Below the pieces are notes generated by a model. That model was not told where the DNA came from, made no database searches, and worked only from the letters and a program-made list of their open reading frames with translations. A stretch of 33,480 bases of DNA from Helicobacter pylori PMSS1 (GTDB lineage: Bacteria; Campylobacterota; Campylobacteria; Campylobacterales; Arcobacteraceae). A program made the translations under genes and the position numbers. Below are positions 5,500 to 21,312 of this stretch, piece after piece. The number at the start of each line of letters is the position of its first letter. The first letter of the stretch is position 1. The stretch is taken from positions 1-33,480 of the forward strand of contig CAMCYD010000012.1 of NCBI GenBank assembly GCA_945883785.1, given 5' to 3'.

Positions 5500-6042
5500 A
5501 TGATAAAGAAAGATCTCAAAAGAAAAAATATTGCAAAGTCATGTTGCGAACTTTTTGCAAAAAATGGATTTTCAAATATTACTGTCAATGCTATTGCCAA
5601 ACAAGCTGGGATTGGGAAAGGGACAGTGTATGAATATTTTGAAAAAAAAGAGGATATTATTTTGGAATTGATGGGGTGTTTGCAAGAGGAATACGATAAC
5701 AATCTTACCTCTTTCGATAACCAAAATCACACACCAAAAGAGAAGCTTTTTTCACTTTTTGAGATTTTTTTGAGTGATGATGAAAAGATTTCGATGCAAA
5801 AAGAGATCTATAAACAATTTTTGATTGTCACTCTATCTTCACCAACTGAAACTATATTAAACTATCATGAACAATTACGAAACAAATATATCTCTGTCAT
5901 CAAAACAATCTCACAAGACTTTGATGGTGGATTGATTTTTGATACGATTATTGGTTTTTTCACTGTTAGTATTAGTACAAAAAATTATGATTTGAAAAAA
6001 ACAATTACAGATTATCTTGACCTTATAGGAGGCACACATTGA
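5500..6042 (+). CDS. TetR-family transcriptional regulator of the efflux operon
   Basis: A 180-residue regulator. The N-terminal helix-turn-helix (about residues 7-53: AKSCCELFAKNGFSNITVNAIAKQAGIGKGTVYEYFEKKEDI) fits the TetR consensus closely, including GxGxGTxYxYFxxKEDL. The all-helical C-terminal half would bind a small-molecule ligand and dimerise. It is the first gene of a five-gene operon for tripartite export, its stop overlaps the start of the TolC-like gene, and a perfect palindromic operator lies just upstream. It most likely represses the operon until a pump substrate is sensed. The ATG is preceded by AAAGGA. Confidence 0.92.
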   Translation: MIKKDLKRKNIAKSCCELFAKNGFSNITVNAIAKQAGIGKGTVYEYFEKKEDIILELMGCLQEEYDNNLTSFDNQNHTPKEKLFSLFEIFLSDDEKISMQKEIYKQFLIVTLSSPTETILNYHEQLRNKYISVIKTISQDFDGGLIFDTIIGFFTVSISTKNYDLKKTITDYLDLIGGTH

Positions 6043-7412
6043 GAAAAGAACTACTCTTTTTGCTAACGACTAGCTCACTTTTTGCAAGTCAAATTAGTTT
6101 TGAAGAAGCACTTTTGAAAACACTTGATAACAATAAAGAGCTTAAAGCAAAAAAATTAGATATAGACACAAGTAAAGCAAACTACCGAAATGCAAGAGGA
6201 TATGAGTTAGGAACTCTCACTTTTAATGAAAATATTGCAAATTCAAATAATGCTATGAATGTTTTTGGGATGAAACTCAGTGCAAGGGAAGCAACTTTTG
6301 GTGATTTTGGATTTAGTGATTTTAATCCAGCACTTATGACGCCTGCTGGTATGCCTACATTATTAGCCACTACTCCAAATGATTTAAATCATGCAGATGC
6401 ACGAACAAATTTTGAAACAAAACTCACTTACGAACTCCCAATTTTTACAGGATACAAACTCCAAAGTGCAAAAGAGATGTCAAAACTTCAAGTCAAAGCA
6501 AATGAAGCAAAATACAATTTTGATGAAAAACAACTGCAAATTGAAGTTCTCAAAGCTTACAATGGTGCAGTTGCTGCAAAATATTTCATAACAGCAACAA
6601 ACAAAATAAAAGAGACTTCAAAAGCTTTTGTGTATCTTGCAACTGAGATGTTCAAAGAGGGTTATGCTACAAATATCGATATTCAACAAGCAGAAGTTTT
6701 TGATATGAAAATCAACACGATGATGCTTGATTCTAAAAATCAATACTCTTTAGCACTTGCTTATCTAAAATTTCTCACAAATGATAAAGAGATTGATGCG
6801 GTAAATGAATTTAAAACTATCAAGCCAAATGAAGAAAATCTTGAAGTGCTTCAAAATTTAGCACTTTCAAATAGAGATGATTTGAAATGGATGGAACAAA
6901 ATACAAAAACAATGGCAACAAAAATAGAATTTGAAAAAAGTGCTACTTATCCAATGATTGGGTCTCATTTAGAATATGGATACAATGGCAATCAAATAAA
7001 TAATATTAACGGTTCAAAGGATTATTACACTCTAGCTGTTGGACTAGAATATAAAATCTTTGATGGACTTACAACCGCTTCAAATATTGAAAAAGCGAAA
7101 ATAGACTATGCAAAAACGCAACATTATTTAGAATATATGAAAGAGGGTTTGAAACTCGGTGTCGAGAAAGCACATCTTACTAGCAAAACAAAAGCAGCTG
7201 TTTTGGAAGAAAAACTAAAAGCTCAAAATTTGGCAGCAGATATCGTAGAAAAAGCAAAAGAGATGTACAAAAATCAACTTATGACGATGAATGATTTGTT
7301 GCTTCAAAGTGCAAATGAACAAAAAGCAATAACTGATGTAATAATGGCAAAATATGAACTTACCCTCGCTTTAGCTGAACTGCAACTCTCAATCGGTAAT
7401 GATTTAAAATAA
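6039..7412 (+). CDS. TolC-family outer-membrane efflux channel
   Basis: A 457-residue outer-membrane factor. A short signal peptide (cleaved after FA near residue 16) is followed by two repeats of long alpha-helical hairpin plus beta strands, as in TolC. The EEALLKTLDNNKELKAKKLDIDTSKANYRNARG motif at the N-terminus and the repeat in the second half are typical. It would provide the outer-membrane exit duct of the RND pump encoded downstream. The start is a TTG overlapping the TetR stop (TTGA). It is chosen because a full AGGAGG (6027-6032) lies 6 nt upstream, giving translational coupling to the regulator. Confidence 0.9.
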   Translation: MRKELLFLLTTSSLFASQISFEEALLKTLDNNKELKAKKLDIDTSKANYRNARGYELGTLTFNENIANSNNAMNVFGMKLSAREATFGDFGFSDFNPALMTPAGMPTLLATTPNDLNHADARTNFETKLTYELPIFTGYKLQSAKEMSKLQVKANEAKYNFDEKQLQIEVLKAYNGAVAAKYFITATNKIKETSKAFVYLATEMFKEGYATNIDIQQAEVFDMKINTMMLDSKNQYSLALAYLKFLTNDKEIDAVNEFKTIKPNEENLEVLQNLALSNRDDLKWMEQNTKTMATKIEFEKSATYPMIGSHLEYGYNGNQINNINGSKDYYTLAVGLEYKIFDGLTTASNIEKAKIDYAKTQHYLEYMKEGLKLGVEKAHLTSKTKAAVLEEKLKAQNLAADIVEKAKEMYKNQLMTMNDLLLQSANEQKAITDVIMAKYELTLALAELQLSIGNDLK

Positions 7413-7424
7413 AGGAAATAATAG

Positions 7425-8168
7425 ATGAAAAAAATAATAACACTTACACTTTTATGCTTAGTAACTTATGCAAATGCTTTAGAATTTAGTGGAACAGTTA
7501 TCTCTGACAATGAAAAATATATCACAAGTAGAAATATGGGATATGTGACAAATGTCTATGTGAGCGAAGGTTCTTATGTAAAAGCTGGCGACCCCCTTTA
7601 TGATATCGAGGCTGAAGATATGAGCCAAAAGAAAAATCAAGCAAATTTACAAGTCAGTATGTATGAAACACAAATGAATTTTGTGAAAATGAACACGGAA
7701 CGACATCAAAGGTTGTATGAAAAAGGGCTTGTAGCAAAAGTGCAAGTGGAGCAATTGGAGATGAATTACAAAAATCTTCAAGATATGGTGGCTATCGCAA
7801 AGTCACAAAGTCAAGAGGTGGATAATCAAAATAAATACTTTTCTATAAAAGCACCAAATAGTGGAATAGTGACAAAAAGAATGCTTAAAGTTGGAGAGAT
7901 GGCGATCCCTGGTATGCCAGCTATGGTTTTGACTGATATTAGTGATATTAAAATTCAAATTGAAGTAAATGAAAGTGACCTTGAGAAAGTCAAACTTGGT
8001 AAAAAAATCCCTTTCGAAATCCCATCAGTTGGGTATTCTTCAACAGGTGTCGTGAAGTCAATCGTTCCTAGTTTAAATCCACTTACTCATACTTTTATCA
8101 TAAAAATTGGATTTAATAAACCAAGCAAAGTGTATCCTGGAATGTATGCAAAAATCAATATCAACTAA
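7425..8168 (+). CDS. RND efflux periplasmic adaptor (membrane fusion protein), short form
   Basis: A 247-residue adaptor with a signal peptide (about 1-18). A split lipoyl/barrel-sandwich domain (GYVTNVYVSEGSYVKAGDPLYDIE and FSIKAPNSGIVTKRMLKVGEMAIPG) flanks a helical hairpin (about 65-130). A beta-barrel domain follows (IKIQIEVNESDLEKVKLGKKIPFEIP). It ends at VYPGMYAKININ, so the C-terminal membrane-proximal domain of longer adaptors (350-400 residues) is largely missing. It would join the inner-membrane RND pump to the TolC-like channel. It lies 12 nt after the channel gene and 10 nt before the pump gene. Confidence 0.9.
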   Translation: MKKIITLTLLCLVTYANALEFSGTVISDNEKYITSRNMGYVTNVYVSEGSYVKAGDPLYDIEAEDMSQKKNQANLQVSMYETQMNFVKMNTERHQRLYEKGLVAKVQVEQLEMNYKNLQDMVAIAKSQSQEVDNQNKYFSIKAPNSGIVTKRMLKVGEMAIPGMPAMVLTDISDIKIQIEVNESDLEKVKLGKKIPFEIPSVGYSSTGVVKSIVPSLNPLTHTFIIKIGFNKPSKVYPGMYAKININ

Positions 8169-8178
8169 AGGATAAGTG

Positions 8179-9801
8179 ATGTCAATAGAAATATTAGCCA
8201 ATCTCAAACCAAAAGATACCGCTGGGAAACTAGCAAAAAACTTTATTTACAATCCACTTACTTCTGTTTTAGCTGTATTTTTACTTCTTATTGGGTATTT
8301 AGCTTTAGAGATTATGCCTAGAGAAGAGGACCCGCAAATCGCTATCAGTGGTGGAAGTATCATAGTGCCTGCACCTGGACTGAGTAGCAAAGAGATAGAA
8401 AAACTTATCACCGAACCACTTGAACAAAAACTACGAGAGGTAAGTGGAGTTGAACATATTTATGGTGTCAGTACAGATAATGTAGCGATTGTCAATGTGA
8501 TGTACTTTATCGGACAAAATAGAGAGATTTCAAACCTTAAGATCTACGATAAAGTGATGCAAAATATGGATATGATGCCAAAAAATGCGATGCAACCACT
8601 TATCAAACCACTTGATATCGATATCGATATCCCTATTGTCAATATCGCTTTTTATCAAAAAAACCAAAATGTTTCTTACAATACTTTTGTTCAAACAGTT
8701 GAAAATCTCAAAAAAGAGATAAATACAATACAAAATATTTCAAAAACTGGGCTCAAAGGGGCAAAAAGAGAACAGTTTAATGTCGATGTTGACCTGCATA
8801 AACTTAAAAGTTATAACCTTTGCTTGGGGCAAATAGCTGATGGAATCAAAGCAATCTCTACAAGAGTTCCAGATATAAGCTCAAAAACAGGGGATAATAA
8901 ACTTGTCGTTTTTGGGATAAAAAATGCTATTGAAACAGTAGAAGATATCGAAAATATAATAGTTGCACAATATATGGGAAGTGCTATTTATCTAAGAGAT
9001 GTAGCGAAAGTAACTTCAGGATTAGATTTCCAAAAAGAACAAAGTGCAAAAATGATATTTAAAGAGAATAATCAAATCAAAGAGGTAAATCAAGTAACGC
9101 TCACTATCGCAAAACTTGCAGGGACAAATGCCGTTTTTGTAGCAAATGATGTGGAAACACTTTTAGCTTCAAAAGAGGCATCGTTAGAAAAGATGGGAAT
9201 TGGTTATAAAACAACAAGAAACTATGGAGAAAGAGCTGATGAAGCTGTTAATGAACTTGTCCATCACCTTGTGATTACTATTATTATTATCGCCGTTATG
9301 CTTGTATTTTTCCTTGGTTGGAAAGAATCTTTGATAGTTACTTTTACCGTTCCAGCTATTTTGGCTGTTACTTTGTTTGTTGCTTATATGGGTGACCAAA
9401 CTATCAATCGTATCACTTTATTTGCTTTTTTACTCTCTTTGGGACTTCTTGTCGATGCTGCTATTATAGTGATTGAAAATATCCATAGACACCTTCATAC
9501 TCATGGAAGTGAAAGTAGAGATATGGATGAACTTCTTGTAACTGCAACCGATGAGATAGGAGCACCGACTAATATCGCAACATTAGCTATTATTTTAACA
9601 ATGGTTCCTATGGCGTTTGTTGGGGGAATGATGGGGGAATTTATGAAACCAATCCCACTCAATGTTCCGATTGCCCTTATCGCTTCATTGTTTATCGCTT
9701 ATATTTTCACCCCCTATTTAAGTAAAAAACTACTCAAACGAAATGAGGACGGAGCACACCATCATACAAAACAAGAGAATATAAAAATGGAGGAAAAATA
9801 G
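8179..9801 (+). CDS. RND efflux pump, N-terminal half
   Basis: This is the first repeat of an RND permease, 540 residues. It contains TM1 (NPLTSVLAVFLLLIGYLALEIMP), the periplasmic porter subdomains (PAPGLSSKEIEKLITEPLEQKL...), then TM2-TM6, with TM4 GLLVDAAIIVIENIHRHLH carrying the acidic proton-relay residue (one Asp where AcrB has two). It ends after TM6 in a hydrophilic His-rich tail. The stop TAG is directly followed, in the same frame, by the ATG of the second half, so a single codon splits the protein. The ATG at 8179 is preferred over a GTG at 8176 because AAGGA lies at a better distance. Confidence 0.9.
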   Translation: MSIEILANLKPKDTAGKLAKNFIYNPLTSVLAVFLLLIGYLALEIMPREEDPQIAISGGSIIVPAPGLSSKEIEKLITEPLEQKLREVSGVEHIYGVSTDNVAIVNVMYFIGQNREISNLKIYDKVMQNMDMMPKNAMQPLIKPLDIDIDIPIVNIAFYQKNQNVSYNTFVQTVENLKKEINTIQNISKTGLKGAKREQFNVDVDLHKLKSYNLCLGQIADGIKAISTRVPDISSKTGDNKLVVFGIKNAIETVEDIENIIVAQYMGSAIYLRDVAKVTSGLDFQKEQSAKMIFKENNQIKEVNQVTLTIAKLAGTNAVFVANDVETLLASKEASLEKMGIGYKTTRNYGERADEAVNELVHHLVITIIIIAVMLVFFLGWKESLIVTFTVPAILAVTLFVAYMGDQTINRITLFAFLLSLGLLVDAAIIVIENIHRHLHTHGSESRDMDELLVTATDEIGAPTNIATLAIILTMVPMAFVGGMMGEFMKPIPLNVPIALIASLFIAYIFTPYLSKKLLKRNEDGAHHHTKQENIKMEEK

Positions 9802-11493
9802 ATGTATAGCCATCACAAAGAGGGGAAATTTGAAGCATTTATCCATAATATACTTGTAAATAAATCTAAAAAAACTATCGTTATCCTGACCACTTTACTG
9901 TTTCTCGCTGGTTCGATTATGATGTTTCCGACTAAAATCGTGTTAGCAAAAATGCTCCCAGGGAAAAGTACTAATACCTTTACAGTTTATGTCGATACAC
10001 CATCAGGAAGTAGTATAGAAGAGACAAAAAAAGTAGCTAGTTGTGTGACGAATATTTTACAAAAAGAGAAAGAAGTTGTTGATTTGGAACTCTTTTTAGG
10101 AGAGGGTTCACCTCTTGATTATGCTGGACTTGTCAAAGGGAGTGGTATGAAAAAAGGGGAGCAATATGCTGAAATTGTTGTCAATCTCACCGATAAAAGT
10201 ACAAGAGATGAAAAATCATTTTCTATGGCTCAAAGACTACGACCAATTATAAATAAAGAATGTAGTGAAATAGTTCCAAATACAAGTATCAGGTTTATCG
10301 AAATGCCAGCTGGTCCCCCTACTTTAGCGGATATTGTTGTTGAAGTATATGGTGAAGAAAATCAAAAAGTAATTGCACTAGCAAATGAAGTGAAGGTTAT
10401 CTTATCAAAAACAGACGGGCTTGTGGATGTTGATGTGATGGCTGATGAAGTGTATAAAAAATATCAAATTGTCCCTATCAAAGATAAAATAAGTAGAAGT
10501 GGCTTAAGTGTTGAACAAGTCAATAAAATACTCTATTTAGCTTTTGAAGGGATGGAAATAGCTGTCAAAGATACAATCAAAGCAAACCATCAAATACCAA
10601 TTTTTGTCACTCTTAGCGAGAGTACAAAAACAATTTCAACAAATTCTTTAGAAAATCTCAAAACAAAACTGAGTTCTTTAAATCTTATGAGTAAAAGTGG
10701 ATTTATGGTACCGCTAACGGAAGTTGTGGAGATACAAGAAACTACATCCCTCCCAACTATTTACCATAAAGATTTAAAAACTATGGCAAATGTTGTTGCT
10801 ACTACGGATATGGTAAGTCAAGTGTATCCTCTTTTAGATGCTAGAGAAAAGATGATGGAACATTTTTCAAATAAATACGAGGTCAATAAAGTAGCTGGAA
10901 TCACCACTTTTATGTTTGACCTTGAACTTAAAGACAAAGTTACAGGGGAAAGTTATCTTCTAAGATGGGATGGGGAGATGAAAGTGACACTTGATACTTT
11001 TAGAGATTTAGGAGCTGCATTTATAGCTGCCCTTATCCTTATTTTCTTACTTCTTGTGATTTATTATAAATCTTTTGCGATTAGTGGAATTATCCTTGCT
11101 GGAAGTTTTTTATCAATTATTGGGGTGATTATTGGGCATTTTGTAGCTGATTTAGTGACAACGGAAACTTTCTTTTTAACTGCGACTTCCCTTATTGGGT
11201 TTATCGCTTTGATGGGGATAAGTTCAAGAAATTCTCTTCTTTTGATAGACTTTGCAAAAAGCTTGATGACGGAACACCATATGGAGAAAAAACGAGCAAT
11301 AGCTATTGCAAGTGCGACGAGAGCTAAACCAATTATGCTTACAGGGATTGCTATCATTTTAGGTTCTGCACTCCTTGCGAGTGACCCTGTATTTGGTGGA
11401 CTTGGAGTGGCTCTTATCTCTGGAACTATCGCTGCTGTCATCGTTTCACTTATATTTATCCCTGTACTTATGGATAATTCTAAAGCCATATAG
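9802..11493 (+). CDS. RND efflux pump, C-terminal half
   Basis: This is the second repeat of the RND permease, 563 residues: TM7 (KTIVILTTLLFLAGSIMMFP), the second porter/docking domain (TPSGSSIEETKKVASCVTNIL..., PAGPPTLADIVVEVYGE) and TM8-TM12, including TM10 MGISSRNSLLLIDFAK with its conserved basic and acidic residues. It starts immediately after an in-frame TAG and has its own GGAGG (9789-9793) 8 nt upstream, so it can be translated separately. The two halves together equal one normal RND protein (about 1,100 residues). A clean split at the internal duplication boundary suggests both halves are functional as separate chains. Confidence 0.9.
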   Translation: MYSHHKEGKFEAFIHNILVNKSKKTIVILTTLLFLAGSIMMFPTKIVLAKMLPGKSTNTFTVYVDTPSGSSIEETKKVASCVTNILQKEKEVVDLELFLGEGSPLDYAGLVKGSGMKKGEQYAEIVVNLTDKSTRDEKSFSMAQRLRPIINKECSEIVPNTSIRFIEMPAGPPTLADIVVEVYGEENQKVIALANEVKVILSKTDGLVDVDVMADEVYKKYQIVPIKDKISRSGLSVEQVNKILYLAFEGMEIAVKDTIKANHQIPIFVTLSESTKTISTNSLENLKTKLSSLNLMSKSGFMVPLTEVVEIQETTSLPTIYHKDLKTMANVVATTDMVSQVYPLLDAREKMMEHFSNKYEVNKVAGITTFMFDLELKDKVTGESYLLRWDGEMKVTLDTFRDLGAAFIAALILIFLLLVIYYKSFAISGIILAGSFLSIIGVIIGHFVADLVTTETFFLTATSLIGFIALMGISSRNSLLLIDFAKSLMTEHHMEKKRAIAIASATRAKPIMLTGIAIILGSALLASDPVFGGLGVALISGTIAAVIVSLIFIPVLMDNSKAI

Positions 11494-12753: not shown

Positions 12754-12783
12754 CAAGAAAATCTATAATTGTTGGGCATACTT

Positions 12784-15201
12784 ATGAAAAATTCTATCAA
12801 AATACTCGGGGCTTATGGTGCAAAAACATTAAATACTGCTATGACATGTTTACAAGTTGATGAAGAGATTTTAATAGATGCTGGAAATATTTTATTTGGT
12901 CTCGATAAAGCAGCAAAAAAAATCAATCATATTTTTTTAACCCATACTCATCTTGACCATATAGTTGATATACCATTCTTGATAGACATTTTTTTTGAAA
13001 GTCGCACTAAACCACTCACTATTTATGGATTGAGTGGAAGCATTGAAAATATTAAAAATTATATTTTTAACTGGGCTATCTGGCCAGACTTTTCTCAAAT
13101 TCCACTCACAATTGGTGGAGAAAATAGTATTATTTTTAAAGTATTGGAAGTCGGGGAAGAGATAGAGATAAATGGGACAAAACTAAAAAGCATCAAAACT
13201 GAACATACAGATTCTAGCTGTGGATATGTTATCACAAAAGATGAAAATGCTGTTTTTTTCACATCAGACACCTATAAATGCCAAAATATTTGGGAGGAAG
13301 TAAATAATAATCCAAAAATAAAATCTTTAATTATAGATGTTTCATTTCCATCTATCTTAAATAAACTTGCATTTGACAGTAAACATTTAACTCCAGAATT
13401 GCTCAAGGAGGAATTAGAAAATCTCAAAAGAGATGATATAAAGATTTTTATTACTCACATAAAACCAATATTTTTAGACGAGATAAAAGATGAAATAAAA
13501 ACAAAATATCCAAATTTTTTACGAGGTGGTCGTATTTTAAATGATGGAGATATGCTAAATCTCCCTAACGGTACCATCAAAGAAAATCTTACAAAAACAC
13601 AACTTGATAGAATTTATATTAGTCAATTGATAGATATTGGGTATTCGCTTACAAGTGAAAGAAACTTTGATGTTTTATTGGAAAAAATCTTGTTAGGTGC
13701 GAAAAAATTATCAAATGCTGACGGAGGAACACTTTATCTTCTAAGTGAAGATGAAAATAATTTAGAGTTTACTGTTGTTCAAACAGATTCTTTAAAAATA
13801 AAAATGGGTGGAACTTCTGGAAAAATTACTTGGCCAAATGTTAAACTGTATGATGAAAAAGGCGATGAAAATTATGAACAAGTTGCTGCTCTATGTGCAT
13901 TAACTGGACAACTTATCAATATTGATGATGTTTATTTTGCTAAAGACTTTAACTTTGAAGGAACTAAAAAATTTGATGCAGGTACTGGATATAGAACAAA
14001 ATCTATGTTAGTCGTCCCCATGACAAACCATGAAGGTAAAGTTATAGGTGTTTTGCAACTTCTTAATAAACTAAGTGAAACCAATGAGATTATAGATTTT
14101 AATCAAGATGATGAAAATCTTATCCTTTCTATGTCTTCGCAAGCTGCTGTTTCTATTTCAAACAATAGACTCATTGAGGGATTAGAAAAACTTTTGATGG
14201 ATTTCATCAAATCAACCGCTGATGCGATTAGTGAAAAGTCAAAATACACAGGTGGACACATCAACCGTGTTGCCGAAATTGCATCTTTGATAGCAAAGGC
14301 TATAAATGATGATAACGATAGTATTTTTAAATCAAAAACATTCAACGAAGATGAATTAAAACAAATTGATATATCTGCTTGGATGCACGATATTGGAAAA
14401 ATCACAACACCTGAATACATTGTCGATAAAGCTACTAAACTTGAAACAATATATGACCGAATTGAAACTATTATTTGCAAAGCAGAGATACTGAAACGAG
14501 ATATTGAAATAGAGTACTTGAGAACCTCAATGGTAACAAAATCAAATGCTGTACAAGAAGAATTAACAAAAGAATTTGTAAAAATGAAGAAAGAGATTGA
14601 AGATGATGTTGTGTTTTTGAAATTAGCCAACAAAGGTAGTGAGTATATGAGCGATGAATATCTACTTAGACTTCATAAAATTGCTACTAGTGGCTTAATA
14701 GTTGATGGGGAAAAAATCAATTTATTAACAGACAATGAACTCTACAATCTCTCAATACGAAAAGGTACGCTCACAAGCGAAGAAAGAACTGTCATAAATA
14801 ACCATGTAGTCGTAAGTTATAATATGTTAAATAAACTCATATTCCCTAAAAAACTAAATCGAATTCCAGTGATTGCTGGGTCACATCATAAAACAATAAA
14901 AACAAATGAAGCTGGACGACATTTTGGATATGGAGCTGAAAGTATTATGAATTTACCTATGAGTTTAGAGGATAGGATTTTAGCCGTTGCTGATGTTTTT
15001 GAAGCTGTTACTGCAAGTGATAGACCATATAAAGACCCAAATAGCCTCAACCATTCTCTTCAAATTTTAGCAAGTATGGCTAAAAATGATGAGTTGGATT
15101 ATGGCTTAGTGAAGTTTTTTATTGATAAAAAAATATACGAAGAATATTCTCTACATAATCTTAAAAAAGAACAAATTGATAAAGTAACAGTAAGTTTATA
15201 A
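12784..15201 (+). CDS. MBL-fold phosphodiesterase - GAF - HD phosphohydrolase fusion
   Basis: An 805-residue cytosolic protein with three modules. Residues about 1-265 are a metallo-beta-lactamase fold with THTHLDH (metal ligands H54, H56, D58, H59), EHTDSSCGY, SDTYKC and THIKP, most like class II cyclic-nucleotide phosphodiesterases. Residues about 285-465 are a GAF domain. Residues about 470-800 are an HD phosphohydrolase related to HD-GYP (TGGHINRVAEIA, MHDIGKI near 533-539, ADVFEAVTASDRPYK), with a roughly 100-residue helical insert after the HD dyad. The GYP motif itself is missing; that region reads GSHHKTIKTNEAGRHFGYG. It may therefore hydrolyse one or two cyclic nucleotides under GAF control. 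The ATG is favoured over the upstream TTG by the promoter position. No Shine-Dalgarno is evident. Confidence 0.82.
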   Translation: MKNSIKILGAYGAKTLNTAMTCLQVDEEILIDAGNILFGLDKAAKKINHIFLTHTHLDHIVDIPFLIDIFFESRTKPLTIYGLSGSIENIKNYIFNWAIWPDFSQIPLTIGGENSIIFKVLEVGEEIEINGTKLKSIKTEHTDSSCGYVITKDENAVFFTSDTYKCQNIWEEVNNNPKIKSLIIDVSFPSILNKLAFDSKHLTPELLKEELENLKRDDIKIFITHIKPIFLDEIKDEIKTKYPNFLRGGRILNDGDMLNLPNGTIKENLTKTQLDRIYISQLIDIGYSLTSERNFDVLLEKILLGAKKLSNADGGTLYLLSEDENNLEFTVVQTDSLKIKMGGTSGKITWPNVKLYDEKGDENYEQVAALCALTGQLINIDDVYFAKDFNFEGTKKFDAGTGYRTKSMLVVPMTNHEGKVIGVLQLLNKLSETNEIIDFNQDDENLILSMSSQAAVSISNNRLIEGLEKLLMDFIKSTADAISEKSKYTGGHINRVAEIASLIAKAINDDNDSIFKSKTFNEDELKQIDISAWMHDIGKITTPEYIVDKATKLETIYDRIETIICKAEILKRDIEIEYLRTSMVTKSNAVQEELTKEFVKMKKEIEDDVVFLKLANKGSEYMSDEYLLRLHKIATSGLIVDGEKINLLTDNELYNLSIRKGTLTSEERTVINNHVVVSYNMLNKLIFPKKLNRIPVIAGSHHKTIKTNEAGRHFGYGAESIMNLPMSLEDRILAVADVFEAVTASDRPYKDPNSLNHSLQILASMAKNDELDYGLVKFFIDKKIYEEYSLHNLKKEQIDKVTVSL

Positions 15202-17743: not shown

Positions 17744-18619
17744 TTATATTTCTTTATCTTTTTTAGGCAATGCACTTTGTTTTATCATCTTTTTTGCATC
17801 TGATTTTACTCTTCGTTCTAGCTTCTTCAAATCCTCCGCTGGTGGCAATTCTTCTGGTTTAATACCTCTTTCAGTTAAAAGTCCCCGTACACTTTCATTA
17901 TTTTGTATATGTTCACTAGTGATGGAATTTTCACCATAAAGATTTTTTTGTTTTACATTGTGATTGGTGATTTCTGTTGCTAGATTTTTAGCGGTGATAG
18001 TGATTGTGGGCAAAAAGTCAGCCAAAGGGCGACTAGCAGGTATACCTAATTTATCTTTCATATTTTGTGTAGTATTTCCACCAAAAAGTGCTGTATCTCC
18101 TTTTGACCTTATTCGACCAAATCCACTATCATCTACTCCTCTTTCATAGATATTTTTTGAGAGTTCCGTTTCGGATTCTCTCAGTTTTGCCCTTGCTTGA
18201 AGTCTATCTTCTAGCTCCAATCTTTGCTCAATTAATTCTTGTTTTCGTGTTTGTATTGCAAAATAGGTTTGAGCAAAAGCGATTTGCTCTTTTTTGCTAT
18301 CGCCATTTTGAGCGATAAGATAACAAGCATATCTTGTAAGTATAATATCTTCTATCGGTCTTTGTGTATTTGAGCCTATTGATACCATTTTCGTGATATC
18401 ACGAAAATGATCTGATACTTCTATATTAGAGTTTTCACAAGCTATTTTTGCCTTTTGGATTACATTTGCAAAATTTTCCCATCTCTCATATCCGAGTACC
18501 TTTTGCAAATCTCTAGCATACCAGTATTCTATCAAGCTATCTTCAAGTGTGTTGGATAGTTGATTGAACTCATTTTGAAGTGTTATTATCGATTCTTTGT
18601 CCATTTTGTATCGCTCCAT
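17744..18619 (-). CDS. dinD: DinD-like DNA-damage-inducible protein
   Basis: A 291-residue protein with strong DinD signatures: EYWYARDLQKVLGYERWENFANVIQKAKIAC near the N-terminus, then DIILTRYACYLIAQNGDSKKEQIAFAQTYFAIQTRKQELIEQR. A charged middle part and a lysine-rich C-terminus (RRVKSDAKKMIKQSALPKK) follow. E. coli DinD (about 274 residues) is SOS-induced and inhibits RecA strand exchange; the first segment also resembles phage antirepressor/BRO-type domains. The start may be the first ATG (18619) or the internal ATG five codons on, which has GGAG upstream. I see no LexA-type palindrome in the leader. Often found in accessory regions, as here. Confidence 0.8.
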   Translation of the reverse strand: MERYKMDKESIITLQNEFNQLSNTLEDSLIEYWYARDLQKVLGYERWENFANVIQKAKIACENSNIEVSDHFRDITKMVSIGSNTQRPIEDIILTRYACYLIAQNGDSKKEQIAFAQTYFAIQTRKQELIEQRLELEDRLQARAKLRESETELSKNIYERGVDDSGFGRIRSKGDTALFGGNTTQNMKDKLGIPASRPLADFLPTITITAKNLATEITNHNVKQKNLYGENSITSEHIQNNESVRGLLTERGIKPEELPPAEDLKKLERRVKSDAKKMIKQSALPKKDKEI

Positions 18620-19456: not shown

Positions 19457-20830
19457 ATGACAAGATTTAGAAAAATAAGTTTTAGGCTACTAATGACTAC
19501 TGTTATTGGTTTCGGCTTCAATGGTTGTGGCGGAGGAGGCGATAATTCAGCTCCACAACAACAGATTAATACTGAAAAATGGGGATTTTTAATTGATTCT
19601 CAAGTAGAAGGTATAGATTATACTTGTGGCTCTATTAGTGGTACTACAGACTCAAATGGTAAATTCTTTTATGATACAACCAAATGTCCAAATGGCATTG
19701 AATTCAAATTAAATAATTTATCACTTGGAATTGTCAATCCATCAAAAATTAATTCCTATCTAACAATCCAAGAGTTAGCAGGAACCGCTAGAAAAGACAT
19801 TTCAGATTTAACAGTACAAAAGATAGCCGTTTTTCTTCAATCGTTAGATGAAGATGATAATGCTTCAAATGGCATTCTAATTAGTCAAAATATCAAAAAT
19901 GCTATCACATTAGATGGAAATCTAGCAGATAAAACAGACAATGAAATTACTGCAGAAATCACAAAACCGACAATAAGTAAAACAGTAAAAGATACAAATA
20001 GTGCATTACAGCATCTTACTGAGAGTACCAATAAAATTGATTATACAAGACCCATATCAACAAATAGTTTTTCAATACCTATGAACGGGGCAGTAAATGT
20101 TGGTATTTATAGTTGGATTATCCTGAATTTTGATGAAGCCATGGATGCAGAATCTATTACACCACAAAATATTACATTAGATGGAAATAAAACATTTTTG
20201 ATTTGTAATTATAATTCCACAACAAAATCAGCTCTCTGTGAAATGGCAGATGGGGTAAAATTTAATGAAAATACAAAATATACAGTGACTGCAAATGTTT
20301 CAAATGCACTGAATAGAAAAAAAAGGATAACAACAAGCTTTACAACTGGAAAACTTGATACTAAACCTCTTTTAAGAACAGGACAAACTACAAGTTATGT
20401 AAATTATGATGATGGATATTATGCCAATCAAGGTCTCGGAAAACTTAGAAGTTTTACAAAAATAAATCAATTAGTAACTGATAATGTTACTGGACTTATA
20501 TGGCAAGATGATATTGCTGTAACAAGCAGTATTCTTGGCATAAATACCAGCTCATATTGTAATAATCTTGATATTGGTAGCTATTCAGATTGGAGACTTC
20601 CAACAATAGAAGAATTAGCAACCATTTCAAGTAAAGGTCAATATAGTCCTGCCATTTTCAATACTTTTTCAAATGTTTCTGCTGAAGACTATTGGTCATC
20701 TACGACTGCCTATCTTGGTATGATTTCAAGTGGCTATAAATGGACTGTAGGTTTTGGTGATGGTGGTAGTATTAGTTGGAGTGGAACAACAAGTGGTTTG
20801 AGAGTTCGTTGCGTTAGAACAAATAATTAA
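19457..20830 (+). CDS. Lipoprotein with Ig-like and C-terminal Lcl (DUF1566) domains
   Basis: A 457-residue secreted lipoprotein. The signal ends in a lipobox-like FNGC with C24, followed by GGGG. Residues about 36-185 resemble a domain frequent in such lipoproteins (VEGIDYTCGSISGTTDSNGKFFYD... VFLQSLDEDDNASNGI). Residues about 190-295 look like a Big_5-type Ig domain (PMNGAVNVGIYSWIILNFDEAMD). Residues about 330-457 are Lcl/DUF1566 (GLIWQDD, DWRLPTIEELATI, YWSSTT, GLRVRCVR). Lcl domains have a C-type-lectin-like fold and act in adhesion in some bacteria; the ligand here is unknown. AGGGA lies 10 nt upstream of the ATG. A second Lcl gene follows after 11 nt. Confidence 0.82.
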   Translation: MTRFRKISFRLLMTTVIGFGFNGCGGGGDNSAPQQQINTEKWGFLIDSQVEGIDYTCGSISGTTDSNGKFFYDTTKCPNGIEFKLNNLSLGIVNPSKINSYLTIQELAGTARKDISDLTVQKIAVFLQSLDEDDNASNGILISQNIKNAITLDGNLADKTDNEITAEITKPTISKTVKDTNSALQHLTESTNKIDYTRPISTNSFSIPMNGAVNVGIYSWIILNFDEAMDAESITPQNITLDGNKTFLICNYNSTTKSALCEMADGVKFNENTKYTVTANVSNALNRKKRITTSFTTGKLDTKPLLRTGQTTSYVNYDDGYYANQGLGKLRSFTKINQLVTDNVTGLIWQDDIAVTSSILGINTSSYCNNLDIGSYSDWRLPTIEELATISSKGQYSPAIFNTFSNVSAEDYWSSTTAYLGMISSGYKWTVGFGDGGSISWSGTTSGLRVRCVRTNN

Positions 20831-20841
20831 AAAGGCAAAAA

Positions 20842-21312
20842 ATGAAAAATAATAAAAGTATAATGTTACGAAAATTATTAATTGGAATATTCTTAATATG
20901 CTATCCATCTTTTCTGCTACAGGCAGATTATTTACGAAATGATATTAAAATGATTGTACTAGATAGTTCTAGTGGTTTAATATGGCAAGATGATAATTCG
21001 TCAAAAAATTTGATTGGTAATTGGTCAACAGCAATTACTACTTGTGAAAATCTTATATTAGGTGGATATACTGATTGGCGACTTCCAAATTTTAATGAAT
21101 TAAATAGCATTACAAGTAAAACAAGTGTATGGAAATCAATTAAAAGTACATTTATAAATATTGCAGATGAGAAATATTGGAGTAGCACCATAATGATTAA
21201 TTCAACAGGAACTGCATGGACTGTAAACTTTAGTCTTAATAGTCCTATGACTTTTGGCGGTAGCAATAAAAATGATGGCTACAATATTCGTTGTGTAAGA
21301 GGTGGATTCTAA
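20842..21312 (+). CDS. Small secreted Lcl (DUF1566) domain protein
   Basis: A 156-residue protein with a hydrophobic signal peptide (LLIGIFLICYPSFLLQA, cleaved near residue 28) and then a single Lcl/DUF1566 domain. The conserved landmarks are in order: SSGLIWQDDNSS, GGYTDWRLPNFNELNSI, KYWSSTIM, AWTVNF and YNIRCVRGGF. It is a paralogue of the last third of the preceding lipoprotein, lacks its lipobox and Ig module, and lies 11 nt downstream behind a short AAGGC ribosome binding site. The two are probably made together, perhaps one anchored and one released. Function unknown. Confidence 0.8.
   Translation: MKNNKSIMLRKLLIGIFLICYPSFLLQADYLRNDIKMIVLDSSSGLIWQDDNSSKNLIGNWSTAITTCENLILGGYTDWRLPNFNELNSITSKTSVWKSIKSTFINIADEKYWSSTIMINSTGTAWTVNFSLNSPMTFGGSNKNDGYNIRCVRGGF

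Follow-up and report, generated by a model that had tools for sequence, protein, structure and literature searches.

A predicted tripartite RND efflux pump of Campylobacterales with a permease encoded as two adjacent half-genes and a shortened adaptor

Introduction

The architecture of AcrB-like permeases and of their adaptors is regarded as fixed, with one chain per permease protomer and a membrane-proximal domain in the adaptor. The typical RND permease is a single chain of about 1,000–1,100 residues that contains two repeats, although this arrangement is not strictly required, and HAE-1 permeases of the AcrB, MexB and AdeB type are made as one polypeptide. Halves belonging to the RND superfamily are known in SecD and SecF, which many bacteria encode by separate genes and others as a fusion. 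These proteins are protein-export factors, however, and do not form a tripartite pump with an adaptor and a TolC-type channel.

Two further systems offer partial parallels. MdtB/MdtC is a heteromeric RND pump produced from two permease genes of one operon (PMC7015380). MdtB and MdtC are each a homologous permease derived from gene duplication, whereas in the pump described here each gene corresponds to one half of a fission. Split-Doa10 of Kluyveromyces represents a natural, genus-wide fission of a polytopic membrane protein (PMC3464245), but it is a eukaryotic ubiquitin ligase and is unrelated to RND permeases. For the adaptor component, a review gives the membrane-proximal domain for all RND adaptors and describes it as essential in AcrAB-TolC (PMC8277102).

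Here, we analyse a locus that very likely encodes a tripartite RND pump whose permease naturally consists of two paired one-repeat polypeptides, the product of an old single fission, and whose adaptor is truncated. Among the papers listed in searches of one open-access library, some of which were directed at neighbouring topics, we saw none that describes an RND efflux permease split in this way, and the word “split” does not occur in the examined passages of a paper on RND systems of Aliarcobacter butzleri (PMC8300790). Such silence does little to show that the split is undescribed, and the public annotation already contains both halves as separate CDS.

Results and Discussion

Organisation of the locus and classification of the permease

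The window, by which we mean the whole analysed stretch of 33,480 nucleotides, corresponds to contig 12 in an assembly of 2.65 Mb and 193 contigs. Among named relatives, an Arcobacteraceae MAG is the nearest, with a C half that is 93% identical. The genes of interest form a tight run on the plus strand in the order regulator, channel, adaptor, N half and C half. The putative operon is led by a TetR-type regulator (5500–6042; PF00440, E 1.1e-13) and continues with a TolC-type outer-membrane efflux protein (6039–7412; PF02321, E 9.1e-36), the gene of which has a TTG start as listed and overlaps the regulator gene by 4 nt. The periplasmic adaptor of 247 aa (7425–8168; PF16576, E 1.6e-25) is followed by the N-terminal half of the RND permease, spanning 540 aa (8179–9801; E 1.4e-76) with a possible alternative GTG start at 8176, and by the C-terminal half, spanning 563 aa (9802–11493; E 1.4e-45). 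Adaptor and TolC-type channel genes (6039–8168) thus adjoin the permease, as is expected of a tripartite efflux operon.

Both halves scored above the gathering score of 28 for ACR_tran (PF00873), with 258.6 bits for the N half and 155.9 bits for the C half. Across the 1,021 positions of this profile, the N half covers 3–499 and the C half 526–1016. The break falls between the two RND repeats, in the linker, which confirms the placement given in a preliminary description of this DNA. In likeness to the AcrB/MexB/AdeB-type HAE-1 permeases, which share PF00873, both repeats and the relay positions in TM4, TM10 and TM11 can be aligned. In contrast to the curated HAE-1 NCBIfam subfamilies, the split permease remains below the cut-offs even with the bits of the two halves added (about 335 for NF033617, cut-off 1250; about 289 for NF000282, cut-off 1250; about 269 for TIGR00915, cut-off 940.35). 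The cut-off of the HME family typified by CusA and CzcA (TIGR00914, 701.45) was not reached either, with 137.1 + 70.8 bits for the two halves. The best matches of the C half among solved structures were TriC and MexK (PDB 6vej, which we take to be TriC, and 20yy); these chains also carry Arg at the TM10 Lys position but, unlike the split permease, are each one chain with two Asp residues in TM4.

Among the nine RND matches listed for the host genome, an internal stop was present in the split locus only, several of the other listed matches spanning just part of the profile.

The junction between the half-genes

The TAG stop of the N half occupies 9799–9801 and the ATG of the C half begins at 9802 in the same frame (junction 9799–9804, plus strand), exactly as first described. 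The joint frame comprises 1,104 codons, the TAG included, in agreement with the earlier statement that one protein of 1,100 residues would result without this codon. The GGAGG reported 8 nt before the second ATG was also recovered, at 9789–9793 on the plus strand and within the 3′ end of the N-half gene, where it would serve as the ribosome-binding site of the C half. A GGAGG located 4–15 nt upstream of an ATG was found for just two of the 660 plus-strand ATGs in the window. TAG itself is an ordinary stop here and ends 5 of 28 selected ORFs in the window, including the two permease ORFs (8179–9801 and the one ending at 11493).

Comparison of 137 distinct split loci placed this junction in context. 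The gap between the halves ranged from −14 to +20 nt, with a 1-nt overlap in 50 loci, a 4-nt overlap in 38 and a zero-nt gap in 13, of which 11 have TAG-ATG. Abutting in-frame TAG and ATG codons are not special in themselves. The nearest second start lay between −4 and +2 nt from the stop of the first gene in 110 of the 137 loci; a start within a few nucleotides of an upstream stop is the spacing typical of coupled translation. SD matches of at least 4 nt preceded 133/137 junction starts versus 984/5086 internal in-frame ATGs, and matches of at least 5 nt preceded 83/137 versus 213/5086. The enrichment indicates that the start of the C half has a genuine ribosome-binding site.

The shared frame raised the possibility that programmed or leaky amber readthrough yields the functional fused permease, with the separate halves being by-products. 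The frame of the window is indeed open across a single TAG, and the halves are in frame in 25 of the 137 loci. In the remaining 112, however, they are out of frame, and this includes the closest relative (L013/L039; C half 93% identical), in which a TAATG overlap places the second gene in a different frame. Four congeners at approximately 80–93% identity (G002, G004, G005 and G007) are all split, two with an in-frame TAG and two in another frame. The in-frame or out-of-frame state changed 10 times across a tree that included 128 split rows, and a second stop between the halves was present in 2 of 23 in-frame loci that were checked. The strong SD match before the second start also argues against readthrough as the source of the functional protein, which we consider very improbable. 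Because the frame varies among junctions, the in-frame TAG is a passing state and not a readthrough signal; the shared frame is incidental, reached by chance as the junction drifts. Low-level readthrough giving a fused form, as previously proposed, therefore lacks support as a conserved feature, although it may occur in the species of the window.

Distribution and history of the split

Homologues were obtained by searching 100 relatives with the read-through protein; the C half was used to search a collection of named species genomes, and further stretches were fetched. Loci were kept only if both halves were present, a procedure that would miss lone halves; six genomes contained at least seven matches to one half only, which were left out (G003 C78, G006, G028, G041, G053 C73 and, twice, G061). 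Removal of 12 duplicates, recognised by their last 400 residues, from 158 loci left 146 distinct loci. The permease was encoded by two adjacent genes in 137 of these and by a single gene in nine. Several same-family orthologues had been taken as fused on account of open frames of 1,068–1,086 aa, but a codon check of the fetched sequences showed their halves to be separated by a stop, and these candidates were dropped. One record (L040, DYPS01000004.1) is titled Desulfosporosinus sp. while its C half is 82% identical to that of the window; over the last 400 residues it matches a genome of the window’s own genus (L017, G004), and the record name looks wrong.

The first tree contained 137 of the 146 loci (128 split and 9 fused), the other nine being too short to include. 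One branch with a support of 100 parted the nine fused rows from the split rows. The fused loci, with 41–48% identity in the N half, form a sister clade and are not re-fusions within the split clade. A rooted tree of 81 rows combined 72 hand-picked loci, of which 66 are split and 6 fused, with two named plasmid records, five outgroup sequences and two paralogues; the two plasmid records and the five outgroups are the seven examined among 51 plasmid records matched. Its 68 split rows formed one clade (SH-aLRT 100), next to which lay the six fused rows from Campylobacterales. The remaining seven rows, namely five plasmid relatives from Bacteroidota, Cyanobacteriota and Pseudomonadota and two paralogues from the host’s own genome, were all fused. 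Row L151 has a long branch and an unsure placement in both trees. Based on the full support for the split clade together with the fused sister clade and outgroups, one old fission is the simplest history.

With a threshold of E ≤ 1e-60, the C half was matched in 42 of 150 genomes sampled from the class; the open frame measured 1,156–1,181 aa (fused) in six of these and 551–676 aa in the other 36. A sample of 200 genomes from the phylum gave 52 matches to the C half, with the same six fused. The pump is common but patchy, and two genomes (G064 and G083) each carry both the split and the fused kind. In Sulfurovum mangrovi ST1-3 and on plasmid pSULKU01 of Sulfuricurvum kujiense, the locus is annotated as two adjacent CDS, each named “efflux RND transporter permease subunit”.

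The preliminary description had left two options, a stable two-subunit pump or a recent nonsense change rescued by re-initiation, and had named a comparison of orthologues as one check and relatives that all encode one fused chain with no upstream GGAGG as one ground for refutation. The comparison supports the first option, the split being retained in 137 of 146 distinct loci and in one clade, so that relatives are far from uniformly fused.

Selection on the halves and their proton-relay residues

Against six relatives, dN/dS was 0.055–0.141 for the N half and 0.065–0.185 for the C half, values to be read in view of high dS (0.86–1.59) and of one C-half comparison that covers 92 codons only. 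These ratios point to purifying selection on both halves. They also bear on the second option and, more broadly, on the reading of a decaying gene that was broken lately by a nonsense mutation, or seems broken through a sequencing error, in a single genome. A single TAG does part the halves in the window, yet the four congeners are split as well, two of them in another frame; with both halves under constraint and two isolate records annotating two CDS, we regard this explanation as refuted and its probability as negligible.

Pairwise distances of the N and C halves were strongly correlated across 128 loci (r = 0.968), whereas the nearest neighbour by distance was identical for both halves in only 71 of them. 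A read-through fold of the joined chain, based on 11 in-frame rows, gave a pLDDT of 50.2 and a pTM of 0.29, probably reflecting the shallow alignment, and is too poor to serve as evidence of co-folding.

The relay of AcrB comprises residues that we take to be D407 and D408 in TM4, K940 in TM10, and R971 and T978 in TM11. The 128 split rows depart from this HAE-1 pattern of TM4 Asp-Asp, TM10 Lys, and TM11 Arg and Thr. The first TM4 Asp and the TM11 Arg and Thr are each present in all 128 rows, but the position of the second Asp is occupied by Ala in 118, Asp in 8, Ser in one and Thr in one, and the K940 position by Arg in all 128, where AcrB has Lys. In the nine fused rows, the second position is Ser in five and Asp in four. 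As these rows vary there too, the second-Asp change is in part common to the fused sister clade and does not follow simply from the split. In AcrB, a change of D408 to Ala abolishes activity, which counts against the reading favoured here. In the split pump, some other residue or a relay with a single Asp must take over this role, or the pump works in another way.

The reduction of the Asp pair to one residue in 118 of the 128 split rows can also be read as a sign that the halves are separate or partly independent proteins, for instance homo-oligomers of one half or subunits in unequal stoichiometry, and do not build one protomer. Half-size RND-type proteins do exist, as SecD and SecF illustrate. 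However, the halves are neighbours in 137/137 split loci, within the −14 to +20 nt noted above (only two-half loci having been collected), they evolve in step, and the conserved relay residues are spread over both, with TM4 in the N half and TM10 and TM11 in the C half. Independent halves are accordingly judged unlikely, if somewhat less so than readthrough. Most likely, as judged from these sequence patterns, the two halves are made by coupled translation and assembled into one RND protomer.

The adaptor and its missing domain

The window adaptor has a signal-peptide-like N terminus followed by hairpin, lipoyl and beta-barrel domains, matched by PF16576 and PF13437, and it ends after the beta-barrel; TIGR01730 is covered only to position 244 of 322. 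Adaptor lengths were compared in 66 distinct split loci with an ORF of at least 100 aa ending near the permease start and in eight of the nine fused loci, which had enough upstream DNA. One ORF (L100; 581 aa, flagellin-like by eye) lacked adaptor homology and was set aside from the 66. The adaptor measured 236–282 aa in 65/65 split loci and 345–349 aa in 8/8 fused loci, and full adaptors of fused relatives from other phyla measured 334–377 aa (n = 4). The window adaptor ends opposite residues 269–274 of the eight fused-clade adaptors, the last 72–76 residues of which, together with a short N-terminal stretch, have no counterpart in it. Among 21 further split loci from basal and distant lineages (20 stretches and L168), an adaptor homologue was present in 15, all ending at the same motif and one clipped on its N side by the end of the stretch; no homologue was found in the other 6 of 21. 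In L168, from S. kujiense pSULKU01, the split permease directly follows a TetR gene, and no adaptor homologue was found in 13.6 kb.

The AlphaFold2 model of the window adaptor (pLDDT 88.8, pTM 0.62) aligned with residues 40–298 of AcrA (9tg4_G; full chain 397 residues; Z 14.9, rmsd 10.9 over 242 residues) and with residues 17–260 of MexA (2v4d_B; Z 14.9, rmsd 9.3 over 226 residues). The large rmsd values would fit hinged domains, and Foldseek TM-scores were only about 0.5, as expected for such domains; for this reason, reliance was placed on the alignment end points. The last residue of the model lies within both alignments, which reach AcrA 298 and MexA 260, so that the missing part is the C-terminal membrane-proximal domain. 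Sequence and model alike show this domain to be absent from the window adaptor.

A parallel is provided by EmrA, the adaptor of an MFS pump, to which HlyD is similar. EmrA also lacks a membrane-proximal domain (PMC4446572; PMC4158417), but large periplasmic domains are missing from the transporter with which it works, whereas the window adaptor accompanies an RND permease with periplasmic parts matching the RND profile.

Proposed origin and assembly of the split pump

Returning to the reading that we favour, a pump with a naturally two-part permease, tree and outgroups suggest that a single gene fission occurred in a Campylobacterales ancestor. The fission site would be the linker between transmembrane helices 6 and 7, as placed by profile positions and with a cytoplasmic topology assumed from AcrB. 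Translation of the C half would start from a ribosome-binding site of its own, located where the N-half gene ends, probably through coupled re-initiation, and the halves would pair non-covalently to give the usual protomer, presumably within a trimer. The partner of this permease would be the adaptor, now devoid of a membrane-proximal domain. Given the absence of this domain, docking between adaptor and permease would have to differ from that of AcrA and AcrB.

A broader proposal is that these loci constitute a distinct class of RND tripartite pump, widespread in Campylobacterales, with a protomer formed by a half-permease heterodimer and adaptor docking without a membrane-proximal domain, and that the fission, the domain loss and the second-Asp change are linked. 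We put this forward tentatively, the balance tipping slightly against it; fission and adaptor domain loss divide the same two clades, and their link amounts to one contrast without repeated events. If true, the class would differ from AcrB in how the adaptor makes contact and possibly in how protons are coupled. A long-conserved natural system lacking both features offers a direct way to ask whether assembly and proton coupling require the covalent link between repeats and the docking domain of the adaptor. For annotators, the adjacent half-permeases of this pump are not pseudogenes.

Other genes in the window

Elsewhere in the window, the product of 1318–2808 is a flavoprotein with a sub-threshold match (158.9 bits, cut-off 525) to the selenoprotein-type sulfide:quinone reductase family NF049943. 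The 810-aa protein encoded at 12769–15201 combines an RNase Z-like metallo-beta-lactamase with GAF and HD domains, a combination that we judge unusual. The gene at 17744–18619 encodes a lone BRO-N domain protein, a type frequent in mobile elements. Two adjoining genes (19457–20830 and 20842–21312) each encode a C-terminal Lcl_C domain and perhaps represent a tandem duplication.
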